From positions 62,001 through 126,000 of the forward strand of contig JABSOY010000010.1 in the NCBI GenBank assembly GCA_013215385.1: a DNA stretch of 64,000 nt, written 5' to 3'. The position numbers and the translations under genes are program-made. This document shows, one piece after another, positions 3,293 through 60,894 of this stretch; positions within the stretch are counted from its first letter, which is position 1; each line of letters opens with the position of its first letter. Under the pieces are notes generated by a model, which worked only from the letters and a program-made list of their open reading frames with translations, had not been told where the DNA came from and did no database searches. The stretch comes from Colwellia sp. (GTDB lineage: Bacteria; Pseudomonadota; Gammaproteobacteria; Enterobacterales; Alteromonadaceae).

Positions 3293-4607
3293 TTTTTATG
3301 CACTTAAGGATGTATGTAATGACCGAGCTGATTTCACCTTGAAGAGAATGGCTTATACCGTTTTTGTTTCGTTATTATTTAGCTTCGCTTGTTCAAATAA
3401 TGTGCTAGCGGTGGGAATTCCAGGTGAGTATGAATTAGGTATGCGTACTCGTTTTCAGCAAGTAAATGATAATTGGCTAGGGGATGCTCATGCCTTTACT
3501 ACGCGAATAAAGCTAACCTCGAATTTTACTTTAGATAAAAACGAACAATGGCAATTATTGTTAGAGCCTAATTATGTCTACGCTTTTAATGATGGTGATT
3601 ATAATTCAGTTACCGTGAAAAAATCAACATCGCCTATTCCTGATCCAAAAGGTTTTAATTGGAGTAAAATTAATCTTCAATATGATAGTGATGATAATTG
3701 GCAATTGATATTTGGTCGCCAAACGTTGGCGTTTGATAATGAGCGTTTTGTAGGCGAAATTGAATTTTGGCAAACACCACAAAGTTTTGATGCGCTTAAG
3801 TTTGATTACAATGATCAACTCAACTGGCATGTACAGTATGCATATAGCAATAAAGTTCATCGAATTTTCGGACAAGACTCCACAGCTATGATACCTAAAG
3901 ATGATATTCGCTATGGTTTAACTGAAAAGCGTCCAGCTAATGAACTAGGTGAACACCGTATAGCCGCACATTTAGTGAATGTAGAATATAAAACCGAAGA
4001 TGATCTTTCGATCGTTGGTTATGGTTACTTTCTTGAAAATAATGATCTTGCAAGGTTCTCAACCAATACCTTTGGTGTGCGAATTAGTGATGAGTTTAAG
4101 CCAAACAAATTTAAATACCGCTATACAGTCGAATTTGCTACACAACAAGATACTGACAATAATCAGGTAAGTTATCAAGCATGGTATAGTTTACTACAGG
4201 CTGGTGTTCAGTATAAAAGTCATAGAATGGAGTTGAGCCAAGAAATACTTAGTGAAGATAATATGCAAGGTTTTATCACACCATTAGGAACTAACCATAA
4301 ATTTCAAGGTTGGGCTGATATTTTTACCGGTTACGGTATGCAAAGTGGCTTGCGAGATCAATATCTAACTTATCAAGGTCGACATAAAAAATTACGCTGG
4401 CGGAGTGTTTATCACGTTTATAAAAATTATCAAAATGGCAATGTTGTTGGTAGTGAATTAGATTTTGAATTAGCCTTTCGTGCGACGAGAAAGTGGGAGT
4501 TTAAGCTCGTTTTTGCAGATTATCGTGTTAAGCATGGCTTGCACTATTTTGCTAAAGCAAATAATGATTTAACTACTTGGTTTGCATCGGTAGCTTATAA
4601 AATTTAA
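3285..4607 (+). CDS. Outer-membrane porin of the alginate-export-like (Alginate_exp) type
   Basis: Starting at ATG 3285 (overlapping the anti-sigma stop by 8 bp) the protein is 440 residues, but ATG 3348 would give a more ordinary signal peptide (MAYTVFVSLLFSFACSNNVLA); the start is therefore uncertain. The mature part is a long run of amphipathic beta strands. The signature IFGRQTLAFDNERFVG followed by WQTPQSFDALKF is typical of the Alginate_exp/OprE-like porin family. Despite the family name, nothing here shows alginate as substrate. Being third in a sigma/anti-sigma unit, it is likely induced by that sigma factor. The C-terminus ends in a strand (WFASVAYKI), as for an outer-membrane barrel. 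Confidence 0.7.
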   Translation: MFDFYALKDVCNDRADFTLKRMAYTVFVSLLFSFACSNNVLAVGIPGEYELGMRTRFQQVNDNWLGDAHAFTTRIKLTSNFTLDKNEQWQLLLEPNYVYAFNDGDYNSVTVKKSTSPIPDPKGFNWSKINLQYDSDDNWQLIFGRQTLAFDNERFVGEIEFWQTPQSFDALKFDYNDQLNWHVQYAYSNKVHRIFGQDSTAMIPKDDIRYGLTEKRPANELGEHRIAAHLVNVEYKTEDDLSIVGYGYFLENNDLARFSTNTFGVRISDEFKPNKFKYRYTVEFATQQDTDNNQVSYQAWYSLLQAGVQYKSHRMELSQEILSEDNMQGFITPLGTNHKFQGWADIFTGYGMQSGLRDQYLTYQGRHKKLRWRSVYHVYKNYQNGNVVGSELDFELAFRATRKWEFKLVFADYRVKHGLHYFAKANNDLTTWFASVAYKI

Positions 4608-4617
4608 GACGAGGGAT

Positions 4618-5259
4618 TTACTTCCAATCATCGGCATTACCATCATGTATAATAGTAATGCCCTCTAGTGCATCGTACCTATCATAAACCTCATCAGGCA
4701 TGGGGTTTTGTCTTAATTCAATAAATTTAATATTAGGCAGACCTGCAACAACCAGGTCTTGAAGTTTGTTATCAAAAAAATAAGCTTTCTCAAGAGATAA
4801 CAGTGCAGAAATATCTAGTATTTTTAACTTGTTATTTGTTATACGAATTTTTTTGAGTTGACTCAAACCCTTAAAGTCAACAGTAACGAGTTTGTTTTTA
4901 AATAGGTATAAACTTTCTAAATGTAATAAACCGACAATATTGATGTTTACCAGCTTATTATTTGCAACATTCAAATGTTTGAGTTTTTTAAAGGGGCGAA
5001 GGTCGGCGTGAGTTAGGTGGTTATTGAATAGAGATAGTTTTTCTAAATTTATAAACATCTCTAGCCCTTCCAAAGTAGTGATATTCATGCCATGACATTT
5101 TAAACTGGTTAACTTTTCTACATTTGGTAAATGCATTTTTGTCGCGTTTTTTAAAATACATGTTGCGAGGTTTTTATCTTTAATATCAGATAGTTTTAGC
5201 GATGAATTAGCATAGGCAACATTTGAATTAAAGAGAAAAAAATATAGGTAAGCGAGCAT
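4618..5259 (-). CDS. Secreted leucine-rich-repeat protein
   Basis: From ATG 5259 the product is 213 residues with a hydrophobic signal segment ending ANVAYA-like (NSNVAYA-NSS). An upstream GTG at 5328 is in frame and would add 23 mostly hydrophobic residues, so the start is not settled. About six leucine-rich repeats of ~21 residues follow, such as LEKLSLFNNHLTHADLRPF, LKHLNVANNKLVNINIVGL and LESLYLFKNKLVTVDFKGL, with the LxxLxLxxNxL pattern of small bacterial LRRs. The protein is probably periplasmic or surface-exposed and binds another protein. It is convergent with the porin gene (10-bp gap). No function can be assigned. Confidence 0.7.
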   Translation of the reverse strand: MLAYLYFFLFNSNVAYANSSLKLSDIKDKNLATCILKNATKMHLPNVEKLTSLKCHGMNITTLEGLEMFINLEKLSLFNNHLTHADLRPFKKLKHLNVANNKLVNINIVGLLHLESLYLFKNKLVTVDFKGLSQLKKIRITNNKLKILDISALLSLEKAYFFDNKLQDLVVAGLPNIKFIELRQNPMPDEVYDRYDALEGITIIHDGNADDWK

Positions 5260-23449: not shown

Positions 23450-25291
23450 TTAGAAGCCACACTGTTTACCTTTGTTTTTCTCTTTTAACCATACTTGTAA
23501 TGGTGCAAAGTAATCTAATACCGCGGTAGCATTCATTTGTTCGCTACCGGTTAAAACTTTGTAGGCTTTTTGCCAAGGTTGGCTAGAGCCCATTTCTAAC
23601 ATGGTATTTAGTGCTTTACCGGCTTCTTTCGAGTTGTAAATTGAACAACGGTGAATAGGGTCGGTGTTGCCCGATATTTCACATAATGCTTTATGAAATT
23701 CAAACTGCTGAATGTGTGCTAAGAAATAGCGGCTGTATGGAACACCACCTGGCACATGGTATTTAGCGCCTGGATCAAACGCATTCGCGTCACGGTCAAC
23801 TGGTGCTGCAACACCTTGATATTTCTCACGTAATTCCCACCAAGCTGTATTGTAGTTTTCAGGTGTAATTTCGCCTGAGTAAACTTTCCAACGCCATTGG
23901 TCGACCATTAAGCCAAATGGAATAAAGGCTATTTTCTCTAACGCCATTTTCATTAATAAGCCAATATCTTTGGACTCATCAGGAATGGTGTCGATTAAGC
24001 CAATTTCTTTTAAATATTTAGGGGTAACAGAAAGCGCAATAGTATCGCCAATCGCTTCATGGAAACCATCGTTAGCACTATTTTGGAAATAGGTTGGCTG
24101 ATTCTTATAAGCACGTTGGTAGAAGTTATGCCCAAGTTCGTGGTGAATTACGTTAAATTCTTCACCAGTTTTTTGGATACACATTTTAATACGAATATCG
24201 TCTTTAGCGTCTAAATCCCAAGCAGAGGCATGACAAACTACGTCACGATCTTCTGGCTTAGTGAATAATGAACGTTCCCAGAATGTTTCTGGTAATGCAT
24301 CAAAACCTAATGAAGTAAAAAAGGTTTCCGCACCTTTGACCATTTTAATTTCGTCATAGTTATTGGCAGCTAATTGTTCAGTAACATCGTAACCTGGATC
24401 GGCATTTTCTGGCGCAACTAACTCGTAGATATTACCCCAAGACTGTGCCCACATATTACCCAATAAATGTGCGGGAATAGGTTGGTCTTGCGGCACTTTA
24501 TCTACGCCGTAAGTTTCACCTAGCTCACTACGAACATAACAATGTAAGTCGTCGTATAAGGGTTTTACTTGTCCCCATAAACGGTCAAGCTCTTTAGCAA
24601 AGTCATCAGCAGGCATGTCGTAATTTGAACGCCACATCGCACCTAAGTCTTTATAACCTAAACCTTGAGCACCTTCATTGCCTAGTTCAGATTGACGAAC
24701 AAATAAAGGCTTCATCTCTGGGCTAATGGTACGCCAGCCTTGCCACATTTCTAGTAATTCGTCGTAATCACGTGAAGTCGCCATCGTTGACGTCATATCA
24801 CCTAAGCTTAGCGTTTTACCGGCTTTAGTGGTGTAAGTGCCTTTACCATACATGCCGCCAAGCTCTGAACCAATTTTTGCAAGTTCAGCTGATTTTGCTG
24901 AATTTTGTGGTGCCGGCATTACTAAGCTTTGCTTTAAGCTGTTTAATTTTCTACGTTGTGTGGCAGTAACTTCAACATCATCAAAGGTAGCGGCAGACAT
25001 GGCAAAACGAACACCGGCTTCCGTTGACTTTTGGTTGGCTGCTGCAGATAACGCGGCGGTATCATCAGTAATGAAGTTTGAATAAATCCATTCTGCACGA
25101 CTTCCTTCAATACCTAGTGCTATTAATTCCTTTTCTGTAGCAATAAGAAATGCATCGGCGTCTTTTGCCGTTAATGCCGGAGCTACTTGTTTTTGAACTT
25201 GTTGAGTTTGCGTTGTACTTTCATTATTACAAGCGGTAAGTGATGCAAGCACACATAGCGCAACACTTGTTTGTTTGAATAGTCTTATCAT
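23450..25291 (-). CDS. M2-family metallopeptidase (angiotensin-converting-enzyme-like dipeptidyl carboxypeptidase), lipoprotein
   Basis: A 613-residue zinc peptidase. The signal peptide ends in the lipobox LTAC (Cys21), so it is lipid-anchored in the envelope. The zinc site is HELGH (His384, Glu385, His388), with the third ligand Glu412 in GFHEAIGD. LWGQVKPLYDDLHCYVRSEL and PAHLLGNMWAQSWGNIY are typical M2 (peptidyl-dipeptidase A) blocks. By the family it removes dipeptides from peptide C-termini, likely for nutrient peptide processing. Its promoter must lie in the upstream region with the tandem 182-bp repeats. Confidence 0.94.
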   Translation of the reverse strand: MIRLFKQTSVALCVLASLTACNNESTTQTQQVQKQVAPALTAKDADAFLIATEKELIALGIEGSRAEWIYSNFITDDTAALSAAANQKSTEAGVRFAMSAATFDDVEVTATQRRKLNSLKQSLVMPAPQNSAKSAELAKIGSELGGMYGKGTYTTKAGKTLSLGDMTSTMATSRDYDELLEMWQGWRTISPEMKPLFVRQSELGNEGAQGLGYKDLGAMWRSNYDMPADDFAKELDRLWGQVKPLYDDLHCYVRSELGETYGVDKVPQDQPIPAHLLGNMWAQSWGNIYELVAPENADPGYDVTEQLAANNYDEIKMVKGAETFFTSLGFDALPETFWERSLFTKPEDRDVVCHASAWDLDAKDDIRIKMCIQKTGEEFNVIHHELGHNFYQRAYKNQPTYFQNSANDGFHEAIGDTIALSVTPKYLKEIGLIDTIPDESKDIGLLMKMALEKIAFIPFGLMVDQWRWKVYSGEITPENYNTAWWELREKYQGVAAPVDRDANAFDPGAKYHVPGGVPYSRYFLAHIQQFEFHKALCEISGNTDPIHRCSIYNSKEAGKALNTMLEMGSSQPWQKAYKVLTGSEQMNATAVLDYFAPLQVWLKEKNKGKQCGF

Positions 25292-25534
25292 AAGCGTCTT
25301 ATTTTTTATTATTAGCAGAAGTGAAAGTTCAGTATATAAAATTGTGAGGTATGCTTAAAGCTTTGGTAAAAAAAAAGTTCTGCACAAAATTGCAGAGTAA
25401 GATGCTCAGAAAATACTAATAAAAACGGTATGCAAGCAACTACCATTGAAAATTGAAATAACAAAGGGCTTGGATGTGCTTTACTGTAGTTATTATGCTA
25501 CAAATTTTTAACAAAGTTAAAGGTAAATTTTAGG

Positions 25535-25565
25535 TAAAAAAAAGCTCAGTAAAAACTTACTGAGC
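25535..25565 (-). terminator. Minus-strand intrinsic terminator in repeat copy 1
   Basis: On the reverse strand GCTCAGTAAGTTTTTACTGAGC forms an 8-9-bp stem followed by at least eight T residues. The structure is that of a strong Rho-independent terminator; on the forward strand there is no T tract after it. Confidence 0.7.
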
Positions 25566-25716
25566 GAGTATCTAAAACAGATATAAAGGAGAAATAACAA
25601 TAAAACACTAATCAAACTGCTACCTTCGAAAAGTTGCGATAATAATAAAGGCAGTTGGTGTTGTTTACTGTGCTCATTCGGTAACAAGTTGTAATTAGGT
25701 TAAGGTAAATTTTACG

Positions 25717-25747
25717 CAAAAAAAAGCTCAGTAAAAACTTACTGAGC
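25717..25747 (-). terminator. Minus-strand intrinsic terminator in repeat copy 2
   Basis: Same stem and T tract as in copy 1, 182 bp away. The hairpin and the reverse-strand T tract are unchanged. Confidence 0.7.
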
Positions 25748-25898
25748 GAGTATCTAAAACAGATATAAAGGAGAAATAACAATAAAACACTAATCAAACT
25801 GCTACCTTCGAAAAGTTGCGATAATAATAAAGGCAGTTGGTGTTGTTTACTGTGCTCATTCGGTAACAAGTTGTAATTAGGTTAAGGTAAATTTTAGG

Positions 25899-25929
25899 CA
25901 AAAAAAAGCTCAGTAAAAACTTACTGAGC
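25899..25929 (-). terminator. Minus-strand intrinsic terminator in repeat copy 3
   Basis: Same stem and T tract as in copies 1 and 2. It is kept although the distal part of copy 3 has diverged. Confidence 0.7.
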
Positions 25930-26134
25930 GAGTATCTAAAACAGATATAAGGGAGAAATAACAATAAAACACTAATCAAGCTTCTACCTTCGAAAAGTTG
26001 CGATAATAATAATGAATATGTGTGTTTTTTACTGTTGTCATTAAGTAATAAAGTGTAATCACTACATGGTTTGTATGTATCTTATTGAATAACATAGTTA
26101 AAATTAAGTTGTGATATTCATTGTTGCGTTATTT

Positions 26135-26148
26135 CAAACGCTTGTTTA
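26135..26148. promoter_or_regulatory. Candidate PsrA-type operator
   Basis: CAAACGCTTGTTTA matches the palindromic CAAAC-N4-GTTTG form described for Pseudomonas PsrA, and the dyad extends outward (TTCAAAC / GTTTAAA, 6 of 7 paired). It lies 64 bases before the start of the PsrA-like gene, suggesting autoregulation. Confidence 0.5.
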
Positions 26149-26211
26149 AACTGTACTTAATGAATAGTAAATATTTATAAATATGATGTAATTAAAAGGT
26201 ATCGTTAGAAC

Positions 26212-26832
26212 ATGAGTACAAAAAATAAAATTCTAGATGCAGCAGAAAGCTTATTTGCCGTACAAGGTTTTAATGGCACGTCATTAAGAGAAATTACTAG
26301 CCAAGCTGAAGTTAACTTAGCCGCAGTAAATTATCACTTTGGTTCAAAAAAAGAATTGATCAAGTCGGTTATGTCTCGTTATATGAATGAGCTTTCACCG
26401 CTATTAGAGTCGGCACTTATTGAAGTCTGCGAACGTGAAAATTTGACTTTACTTGAAGTGTTCTCAGCTTTTATTGAGCCATTATTGTCATTAAACGAAT
26501 TTAAAGAAAATGGCACCAGTAATTTTTTACAGTTACTCGGTCGTGGTTATACTGACAGCCAAGGTTTTTTACGCTGGTTTTTAACCACGCAATATCCTGG
26601 TGTAATTAATAATTTTGTTAAAGCGGTACAAAAAGCTTATCCAGAGTTAACTGCAGAAGAAATGTTCTGGCGCTTGCACTTTACGATGGGAACCGTGGTA
26701 TTTACTATGTCGTCGAGCGATGCTTTAATGGATATTGCAAAAAGTGACTTTAACAATATTATTGATATTGCTGGTGTTATCAAAAAAGTTATCCCCTATG
26801 TTGCTGCTGGTGTCGCTGCTCCCATAGTTTAA
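26212..26832 (+). CDS. psrA: TetR-family regulator, PsrA-like
   Basis: A 206-residue TetR protein. The N-terminal HTH reads ILDAAESLFAVQGFNGTSLR, then EITSQAEVNLAAVNYHFGSK, very close to the DNA-binding domain of Pseudomonas PsrA. The C-terminal half (about 60-200) is the effector-binding helical domain. PsrA proteins respond to long-chain fatty acids or acyl-CoA and control beta-oxidation and related genes. The symbol is assigned by domain resemblance, so the target set is inference. No RBS is obvious before ATG 26212. nagZ follows 109 bp downstream. Confidence 0.75.
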   Translation: MSTKNKILDAAESLFAVQGFNGTSLREITSQAEVNLAAVNYHFGSKKELIKSVMSRYMNELSPLLESALIEVCERENLTLLEVFSAFIEPLLSLNEFKENGTSNFLQLLGRGYTDSQGFLRWFLTTQYPGVINNFVKAVQKAYPELTAEEMFWRLHFTMGTVVFTMSSSDALMDIAKSDFNNIIDIAGVIKKVIPYVAAGVAAPIV

Positions 26833-58690: not shown

Positions 58691-59416
58691 ATGGATACCA
58701 TATTAATTGTTGAAGACGATCAAGACATTGCAGATTTAATTACCCTAAACCTGCAAGAGTTGTCATTAACGGTAGAGCATTGTTTAACAGGGGAATTAGC
58801 ATTGGAAAAACTTAAGCGTAATAGTTATTCGATGGTTTTACTTGATGTCATGTTACCAGGAATTTCGGGTTTAGATGTTTGCCGACAATTACGCGAGCAA
58901 AAACCTGAACAAGTGATACTCATGCTGACTTCTCGAGACAGTGAACTCGACAGGGTTTTAGGGCTTGAGCTCGGTGCCGATGATTACATGACTAAGCCCT
59001 TCAGCGTACGTGAATTACAAGCAAGGGTGCGCAGCCAACTGCGACGTTTGCATTTAGCCGCTCAGCTTAATGAAAAAAGATCACAACAACAGCAACCTGA
59101 ACAACATTTAACGATAGGCGAATTACAAATAGATAATATCTCTCATCGCACGTTACTTGCAGGAAAAGAGCTAGATTTAACCTCTACAGAATTTGATTTA
59201 CTGCTATTTTTAGCATCGAATCCAGAGCAAGTGTTTTCTCGTGAGCAGCTACTTAATAATGTTTGGGGATATCACCATAGCGGTTATGAACATACGGTTA
59301 ATTCTCATATTAATCGCTTACGCAATAAAGTTGAAAAAAATGTCAATAAACCTGAAATTGTACAAACAGTTTGGGGAGTGGGTTATAAATTTAGTAAACA
59401 AGGTGTTGCCGCATGA
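58691..59416 (+). CDS. OmpR/PhoB-family response regulator
   Basis: A 241-residue two-domain regulator. The receiver has the acidic pair at 9-10 (VEDDQD), the phosphoacceptor Asp52 (MVLLDVMLPGISGLDV) and Lys102 (DDYMTKPFS). The C-terminal winged-helix domain (about 140-235) includes LDLTSTEFDLLLFLASNPEQ and HTVNSHINRLRNKVE. It starts at ATG 58691 and overlaps the kinase gene by 4 bp (ATGA). Spondin genes immediately upstream carry direct-repeat operators suited to this regulator family, making them the first candidate targets. Confidence 0.95.
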   Translation: MDTILIVEDDQDIADLITLNLQELSLTVEHCLTGELALEKLKRNSYSMVLLDVMLPGISGLDVCRQLREQKPEQVILMLTSRDSELDRVLGLELGADDYMTKPFSVRELQARVRSQLRRLHLAAQLNEKRSQQQQPEQHLTIGELQIDNISHRTLLAGKELDLTSTEFDLLLFLASNPEQVFSREQLLNNVWGYHHSGYEHTVNSHINRLRNKVEKNVNKPEIVQTVWGVGYKFSKQGVAA

Positions 59417-60894
59417 AATTGTCTTTATATCATCGATTATCTTTATCATTACTGGTGGTATTTATTGCAATCATTAGTGTCTTTTATATTTGGGCACAGC
59501 AACTTGAGAAAAAAACACGATATGAATCAGAGCAAAATCTGCATTTATCATTAGCTGCAAATTTAGCGAGAGATAATCCATTACTTCAGCAAGGTGTTTA
59601 TGACCATGAAGCATTGAAAAATCTATTCCATACCTTGATGATTATGGGCCCCGCCTTTGAGTTTTATTTTGTTGATACCAATGGCAACATCATGACCCAT
59701 TCAATAGCGCCGTCACTGATTAAACGTAATAAAATTGACTTGTTACCGCTGAAGCTATTAACACAAAACCAAGCACCGCTACCTATCTATGGTGACGACC
59801 CGCAGCACCATTCACGTAAAAAAATATTTTCAGCCGCCCCTGTTTTTAATGGCAGCACATTGCAGGGTTACCTGTATGTTATTGTTGCTGGGGAGCGTTA
59901 TGAGTCAGCCTTTAATCGCTTACAGTCAACAAGACAAACTGAGTTATCTATTATGCTCATGCTCGGTGCTATGCTGTTTCTGTTTGTCGTGATGTTAGGA
60001 ATATTTGCTTATTTTACCCGACCCTTAAGGCGGCTTAGTCAAGATATTAAAGCCTTGCAAGCGGTTGGTTTTGATAAAAGTAAAGTAGAATTAGCCCAGT
60101 GGATGCCAAATAGTAGAAATGAAGTGCATCAGTTAGGGGCGGCATTCGAGAAAATGGTTAAACAAATAAATCAGCAGTTTTCCATGTTACAAAAAAATGA
60201 TGTGCAGCGCCGTGAATTACTCGCAGATATTTCTCATGATTTACGTACACCACTTTCTTCATTACAAGGTTATATTGAAACGTTAGCACTAAAGAGTAAT
60301 GAAGCGTCACAAGAGCAACGACAAAAATTTGTTGCAACAGCACTTAAAAATGCGCAACAGTTAAAAGCGTTAATTGACCAAATATTCGAATTAGCGCATT
60401 TAGAAGGAGGGCAGGTCTCACTCAACCTTGAAACTTTCAACTTAGCCGAACTTTTATACGATGTTGCAGCGAAATTTAGTTTACAAACCACAGCAAAAGA
60501 CATTCAAATATCGATAGTACCAGAGTGCTCTTATACACAAATACATAGCGATATAGGTAAATTAGAGCGAGTATTAAGTAACTTGTTAGAGAATGCTATA
60601 CGCCATACATCCGAAAAGGGAATAATAACTTTGGTGATTACTGAGCTCAATAATAATCAGTGTCAGCTGAGTATTACCGATACCGGAACCGGTATTAAAG
60701 AGGACGAGTTACTCTATATTTTTGACACTCGTTATCGTGCCAGCAATGCCATTCAAGATAAAGAAAAACACACAGGGTTAGGGTTAGCCATAACCAAAAA
60801 GTTACTTGAATTATTAAAAACCGATATCAAAGTAACCAGTACCTTGGGTAAAGGAACGTCATTTTCGTTCAACTTACGTAAAGTTTCCCTATAG
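59413..60894 (+). CDS. Sensor histidine kinase (HisKA/HATPase)
   Basis: A 493-residue membrane kinase. TM1 is at about 11-29, a periplasmic sensor of ~140 residues follows (FEFYFVDTNGNIMTHSIAPS, a PDC/PAS-like strand pattern), and TM2 lies at about 178-200. A HAMP domain is followed by HisKA with phospho-His275 (LLADISHDLRTPLSSLQGYI) and an HATPase_c domain with N box (LSNLLENAIRHTS), G1 (SITDTGTGI) and G2 (HTGLGLAITKKL). It partners the OmpR-type regulator upstream. The signal is unknown. Confidence 0.95.
   Translation: MKLSLYHRLSLSLLVVFIAIISVFYIWAQQLEKKTRYESEQNLHLSLAANLARDNPLLQQGVYDHEALKNLFHTLMIMGPAFEFYFVDTNGNIMTHSIAPSLIKRNKIDLLPLKLLTQNQAPLPIYGDDPQHHSRKKIFSAAPVFNGSTLQGYLYVIVAGERYESAFNRLQSTRQTELSIMLMLGAMLFLFVVMLGIFAYFTRPLRRLSQDIKALQAVGFDKSKVELAQWMPNSRNEVHQLGAAFEKMVKQINQQFSMLQKNDVQRRELLADISHDLRTPLSSLQGYIETLALKSNEASQEQRQKFVATALKNAQQLKALIDQIFELAHLEGGQVSLNLETFNLAELLYDVAAKFSLQTTAKDIQISIVPECSYTQIHSDIGKLERVLSNLLENAIRHTSEKGIITLVITELNNNQCQLSITDTGTGIKEDELLYIFDTRYRASNAIQDKEKHTGLGLAITKKLLELLKTDIKVTSTLGKGTSFSFNLRKVSL

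Follow-up and report, generated by a model that had tools for sequence, protein, structure and literature searches.

Sibling units with terminators and conserved promoter-like DNA beside an M2 peptidase gene of Colwellia: a candidate array of trans-acting small RNAs

Introduction

Why should the gap between two divergent genes of a Colwellia genome hold the same terminator hairpin four times over? The window analysed here is a stretch of 64,000 nucleotides that forms part of contig C3 in a genome of 5.1 Mb. On one side of the gap, co-directional with the array and downstream of it, lies a gene for an M2 family peptidase (23450..25291, minus strand; Pfam PF01401, 747.5 bits), whose product has 94% identity to its Colwellia hornerae counterpart and so marks the genome as that of a Colwellia-type marine gammaproteobacterium, and on the other a divergent gene for a TetR-type regulator (26212..26832, plus strand; Pfam TetR_N and TetR_C_30). 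Both are conserved neighbours by synteny, and the M2 peptidase gene probably has no part in the mechanism proposed below. Between them lie four minus-strand units, three near-identical at a period of 182 bp and one diverged. An earlier note on this DNA read them mainly as tandem small RNAs (sRNAs) with poly-U terminators whose structure is under selection, and alternatively as an insulator before the M2 gene.

Tandem sibling sRNAs are a kind of system already known. The explanation that we consider probable is that the array consists of sibling genes for trans-acting sRNAs, which would be activated by a regulator of the OmpR family and would block translation through an anti-Shine-Dalgarno or anti-start-codon segment, perhaps on outer-membrane receptors. 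We infer the regulator and the mode of action by analogy, whereas the sequence itself shows the units, their terminators and covariation, the conserved promoter-like DNA, the location and the change in copy number.

The four units and their terminators

Tandem Repeats Finder reported a period of 182, with 2.7 copies and 98% matches, at 25520-26012. When the middle unit (unit 2) was used as a DNA query against the genome, the remaining three units matched at 99, 90 and 71% identity and no further unit was found elsewhere at E 0.001. A covariance model of the unit recovered the same four places and no fifth, and thus the tandem units and diverged fourth described in the earlier note are borne out, while the search for further copies in the genome that it proposed returned the array only.

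All four units are read on the minus strand, and the starts of their predicted RNAs were inferred from the −10 position. Unit 1 (25900..26059) begins with a box of half-sites (26059-26023) and a −10 element, TATTAT (26011-26006), and its predicted RNA (~25999-25900) ends in a terminator stem (25929-25908) with a T-run. Unit 2 (25718..25877) has its half-site box at 25877-25841, its −10 at 25829-25824, and a predicted RNA at ~25817-25718 with the terminator stem at 25747-25726 and a T-run. Unit 3 (25536..25695; box 25695-25659, −10 25647-25642, predicted RNA ~25635-25536, terminator stem 25565-25544) is identical to unit 2 from the box through the T-run. Unit 4 (25369..25511), which is closest to the M2 gene, is the diverged copy at 71% identity to unit 2; it matches the covariance model at E 1.1e-10 and has a box score of 23. 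Its box (25511-25475) is weaker, the first half-site being lost, and is followed by a −10-like TGTTAT (25463-25458) and a predicted RNA (~25451-25369) with its terminator stem at 25396-25379.

A terminator scan of the gap (25292-26211) returned five sites, four on the minus strand and one weak one on the plus strand, against a shuffled mean of 0.4 (sd 0.7, n=50), in agreement with the earlier claim of a minus-strand intrinsic terminator in each unit. The same note held that the diverged copy had changed its stem and kept the hairpin; indeed, TCTGCA/TGCAGA there replaces GCTCAGTAA/TTACTGAGC. Comparison of copies in relatives extended this observation to 35 units, in which the seven-pair stem is paired in 98.8% of 245 cells (0 of 500 shuffles as high), compared with 45.7% at most when the partner is slid as a control. 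Both sides have changed in 33 cells, a number that 0 of 500 shuffles reach, and such changes fall on four pairs, which 2 of 500 shuffles reach; the covariation score was also reached by 0 of 500 shuffles. One of the five measures, the number of further pair types, did not stand out from shuffles, 407 of 500 of which reached it. These compensatory changes point to an intrinsic terminator with a poly-U tail whose structure is under selection.

In addition, the predicted RNA of unit 2 folds with a z of −3.5, and only one of 200 shuffles was equally stable. Closed ATG frames of at least 12 codons occur in just 10 of 64 units, so that no conserved protein is encoded and the units can be ruled out as small protein genes. 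Outside the units, inspection by eye showed a palindrome-like GTTTAAACAnnCGTTTAAA at 26100-26210 of the window and at the TetR-proximal end of the gap in several relatives. It recurs there 5' of the TetR gene and is probably that gene's own operator.

Promoter-like DNA and the candidate regulator

The alignment of 35 units from the window and related genomes contains, upstream of the units, aTTACAaactgTTACagaatnannACAGTaAAAaACA, then 11 bp, then TAnnAT. The half-sites comprise four ACA at 10-11-10 bp spacing, i.e., one per helical turn. Among 64 distinct units from 40 loci, which were picked by a box score of at least 22 and in which unit 3 of the window was merged with the identical unit 2, ACA stands at position 25 in 64, at position 4 in 62 and at position 35 in 59, and AC at position 14 in 63; these counts are partly circular, since the box score had picked those very units. 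The −10 element played no part in the picking, and TAnnAT falls exactly at positions 49-54 in 58 of the 64.

The earlier note had seen no obvious promoter in the units. A generic sigma-70 scan of the gap agrees with it, giving three sites against 3.6 expected in shuffles and hence no excess; comparison across relatives, by which alone the unit promoters become visible, instead reveals conserved promoter-like DNA before each unit. By that comparison every unit appears to carry its own promoter, which argues for four complete transcription units. A good −35 is absent from these promoters, and a poor −35 is what we would expect of an activated promoter. Starting at a promoter of its own, each unit would be read on the minus strand as far as its own terminator and yield a poly-U-tailed RNA of ~85-100 nt, which may depend on Hfq. 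For units of the Colwellia psychrerythraea type, longer RNAs of ~145 nt would be expected.

Published motifs are GTTACAnnnnGTTACA for OmpR and TACAtntngtTACA for RstA (PMC7315122), and GTTACA is part of the motif of the OmpR-like RisA (PMC11019879). The first pair of half-sites, TTACA/GTTACA, resembles these OmpR, RstA and RisA motifs (PMC7315122, PMC11019879). The genome has a gene for OmpR itself (447.5 bits against a cut-off of 331). A response regulator of the OmpR family, with OmpR as first candidate, would thus bind the four in-phase half-sites and, once bound, supply the activation that is lacking in the poor −35 region.

The same sRNA genes might instead answer to another activator of the OmpR/PhoB family, namely an RstA-like protein, PhoB or a CpxR-like protein, a possibility that we entertain with some reserve. 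The published RstA and OmpR motifs are nearly identical (PMC7315122). Moreover, RstA was the best model for five of the ten regulators scanned, all under its cut-off; those ten were drawn from the 43 PF00486 matches of the genome and left aside the highest-scoring of them. PhoB is also present. The end of the box and the −10 are 11 bp apart, a PhoB-like position; against PhoB, the units' first two half-sites, TTACA/GTTACA, match the OmpR and RisA motifs and differ from the PhoB half-site. The response regulator with the genome's top PF00486 score (L355) sits in the window itself, at ~59030-59750.

When the composite box was sought in the genome with up to two mismatches, 11 places were found, compared with eight for a reversed control. 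The only three exact places are units, the place with one mismatch falls within a gene, and unit 4 is not among the 11; no extra site was convincing.

Distribution among relatives

At E 0.001 the covariance model matched 38 of 242 genomes of the family, in 12 of 52 genera. In an order-wide draw of 295 genomes it matched seven, of which six belong to the family and the single outsider is a weak match (E 5e-4); both searches ran with stricter filters that lose weak matches. Judged by this model, the units do not extend beyond Colwellia-type relatives. Matches at E ≤1e-5 occur in 34 genomes, and in 31 of these the match lies within ~1.3 kb upstream of an M2 gene and on its strand (coordinates compared by eye). 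Of the other three, G008 has four copies and G052 one copy elsewhere, and G081 was matched while its M2 gene was not found. The four units of G008 (contig C3, ~4212-4997) have a prolyl-oligopeptidase-like gene on one side and a gene for an efflux outer-membrane protein on the other, with a TonB receptor gene beyond; these flanking genes were named by eye.

Among 80 named M2 loci, 66 retain the divergent TetR gene with a gap below 1.4 kb. Terminator-plus-box units occur in 31 of these 66 gaps, up to four in each and 47 in total, compared with zero in 20 shuffled sets, and 35 gaps are without any. In three Shewanella loci (L110, L113 and L116) the M2-TetR gap spans 1.2 to 2.6 kb and has no terminator-like sites on the M2 strand. 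The earlier note would have taken a lack of hairpin conservation in related strains as a sign of simple recent duplication. The hairpin proved to be conserved among relatives, yet within the window's genus the model finds no unit in four of the five further genomes (G001, G002, G004 and G005), so that two of six match, the window's and G003. A lone terminator-like hairpin is kept in G001.

The prevailing position upstream of the M2 gene and on its strand would suit an insulator, or an attenuating leader of the peptidase gene. Nevertheless, each unit has its own promoter-like DNA, units lie away from M2 in G008 and G052, unit-free gaps are common, and the kept segments described below would pair with ribosome-binding sites and not with a leader. 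The insulator offered as an alternative in the earlier note is therefore improbable, and on the units' own promoters and the off-site units we reject insulator or leader as the main reading. The reading as tandem sRNA genes, in contrast, gains support from the covariation, the promoter and the presence of units in the same gap in other species.

Copy number and candidate seeds

In a quick tree of the 64 units, the four copies of Colwellia psychrerythraea ND2E group together (support 99), as do three of GAB14E (93) and four of Thalassotalea algicola (29 only). Since copies of one genome cluster, amplification has apparently occurred more than once. Over all groups the tree requires 44 label changes, compared with 56.3 on average in shuffles, and 0 of 200 shuffles were as low. 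Tandem duplication and loss would set the dose of the RNAs and let the copies diverge.

The units carry at least three types of body, distinguished in alignments by eye: one with TTGTTATnnTCTCCCTT, a long one with GTTTCATGTTGT, and one with TTTCATACTTTCCCT, to which the M2-nearest copy of several species belongs. TTGTTATnnTCTCCCTT is complementary to the Shine-Dalgarno region, while TTTCATACTTTCCCT and GTTTCATGTTGT are also complementary to an ATGAAA start. Upstream of the terminator, 58 of 64 units carry [CT]TCC[CT] (27 on average and 32 at most in shuffles), and TTTCATGTTG is present in 25 of 64 (shuffled mean 0.025). In the window, the candidate seeds are the pyrimidine-rich segments TTGTTATTTCTCCCTT of unit 1 (25949..25964, minus strand), which is complementary to a Shine-Dalgarno-type sequence, TTGTTATTTCTCCTTT of unit 2 (25767..25782, minus strand), and that of unit 3 (25585..25600, minus strand); unit 4 has neither of the two seed motifs. 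AbcR and other sRNAs carry pyrimidine anti-Shine-Dalgarno seeds. In the proposed mechanism, the pyrimidine-rich segment would pair with Shine-Dalgarno sequences of mRNAs and probably block their translation, and in other species the start-codon-complementary segment would pair instead.

Predicted mRNA targets

The start regions of 998 genes, called in the window and in 1.2 Mb of its genome, were scored against the unit 2 RNA and 60 shuffled RNAs. As a class, the 15 TonB-dependent receptors lean towards pairing with this RNA when compared with the other 983 genes (p 0.0005 for z, 0.015 for energy), and the best pairing z of all 998 genes belongs to such a receptor. Pairing with the unit 2 RNA is not conserved in the receptor orthologues: the leader of the first receptor varies between species, and that of the second is unchanged in the four same-genus genomes that have no units by the model. 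In a second species, with three TonB-like genes among 631, the p values were 0.35, 0.65 and 0.03 for three class A RNAs and 0.003 for a class B RNA, and the pairing z of 65 orthologous pairs of the two species shows no correlation (rho −0.004). In addition, near-exact complements of the seed occur at 23 places in the genome, three of them the units themselves, compared with 15 in a control, and the 11 places inspected yielded no convincing target. Because the pairing is unconserved, the p values of the second genome mixed and the orthologues uncorrelated, the receptor hypothesis leans mostly on the analogy with OmrA/OmrB, by which outer-membrane receptor mRNAs are perhaps the likeliest class of target.

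Several copies, together with the failure to find conserved mRNA targets, would also suit RNAs that bind a protein, as in CsrA-like titration, or sponge another sRNA and pair with no mRNA. However, classical Csr RNAs are rich in GGA (9 to 25 in Pseudoalteromonas; PMC11882849), and this CsrB-type hallmark is absent from the unit 2 RNA, the one counted, which contains zero; we deem titration or sponging unlikely. Finally, a recent tandem duplication of non-functional DNA, as the near identity of three copies and the four same-genus genomes without a unit by the model might suggest, is contradicted by the compensatory stem changes and by the conservation of promoter and gap position across genera, and is hardly credible.

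A second RNA element in the gap

Another terminator hairpin, with GATCTGTCA in its loop, is found in 25 of the 66 named M2-TetR gaps (e.g., L057, L068, L073, L102 and L103), and GATCTGTCA has 28 occurrences in total over 607 kb of locus DNA. Within 120 nt upstream of it, 17 of the 25 have a sigma-E-type promoter, GAACT(T/A)-N15-17-TC(ACT)(ATG)A, a pattern fixed after the alignment of the element had been viewed; shuffles average 0.08 with a maximum of 1, and such a box is missing from all 41 gaps that lack the element. The element adjoins unit arrays in two genomes of the Thalassotalea type; as an exact 15-mer it does not occur in the genome of the window. It is a candidate sigma-E-dependent sRNA, and its promoter makes an envelope-stress role of the entire gap more plausible. 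As a tentative extension, the M2-TetR gap of Colwellia-type bacteria might be a fast-evolving island devoted to envelope-stress sRNAs, shared by one sRNA with a sigma-E-type promoter and an array under an OmpR-type regulator. Separate lineages would amplify, lose and re-seed the array, switching between anti-Shine-Dalgarno and anti-start-codon seeds with promoter and terminator retained, so that control resembling that by OmrA/OmrB and by RybB/MicA would have arisen separately and be tuned by copy number.

Comparison with known systems and implications

A search of the window against Rfam gave no match at gathering score, and 12 loci gave 27 matches up to E 10, all below gathering score and with OmrA/OmrB absent among them, by which a known Rfam family, OmrA/OmrB included, is ruled out at that score. 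The Brt transcripts of Bartonella are a multicopy RNA family with terminators before regulator genes, and act as riboswitch-like leaders of the gene behind; the array shares the multiple copies and terminators, whereas its units have their own promoters and can lie elsewhere. OmrA and OmrB are tandem sibling sRNAs of 88 and 82 nt, activated by EnvZ/OmpR and acting on outer-membrane iron receptors among others (PMC4211561, PMC10342277). The array resembles them in its tandem siblings of similar length, and it would work in a comparable way if OmpR activation and receptor targets hold for it too; it differs in its neighbours, its seed and a copy number of 0 to 4. Several related copies, some of them in tandem, are also described for PrrF1/2, AbcR1/2, Qrr and csRNA (PMC4211561), which belong to other phyla or families, have other regulators and show no Rfam sequence match to the units.

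No paper on this unit family was found in the open-access literature, the scope of the search; within that literature, both the family and the speed at which its copy number evolves appear to be new. If true, the proposed array gives the ecologically important cold-marine bacteria of the Colwellia type, in which post-transcriptional control has been little studied, a family of sRNAs that no Rfam model matches at threshold. Moreover, since the number of copies (0 to 4) and the type of seed vary between close relatives while promoter and position stay, the family would be well suited as a natural test of the way in which tandemly duplicated sRNAs change in dosage and choice of targets.
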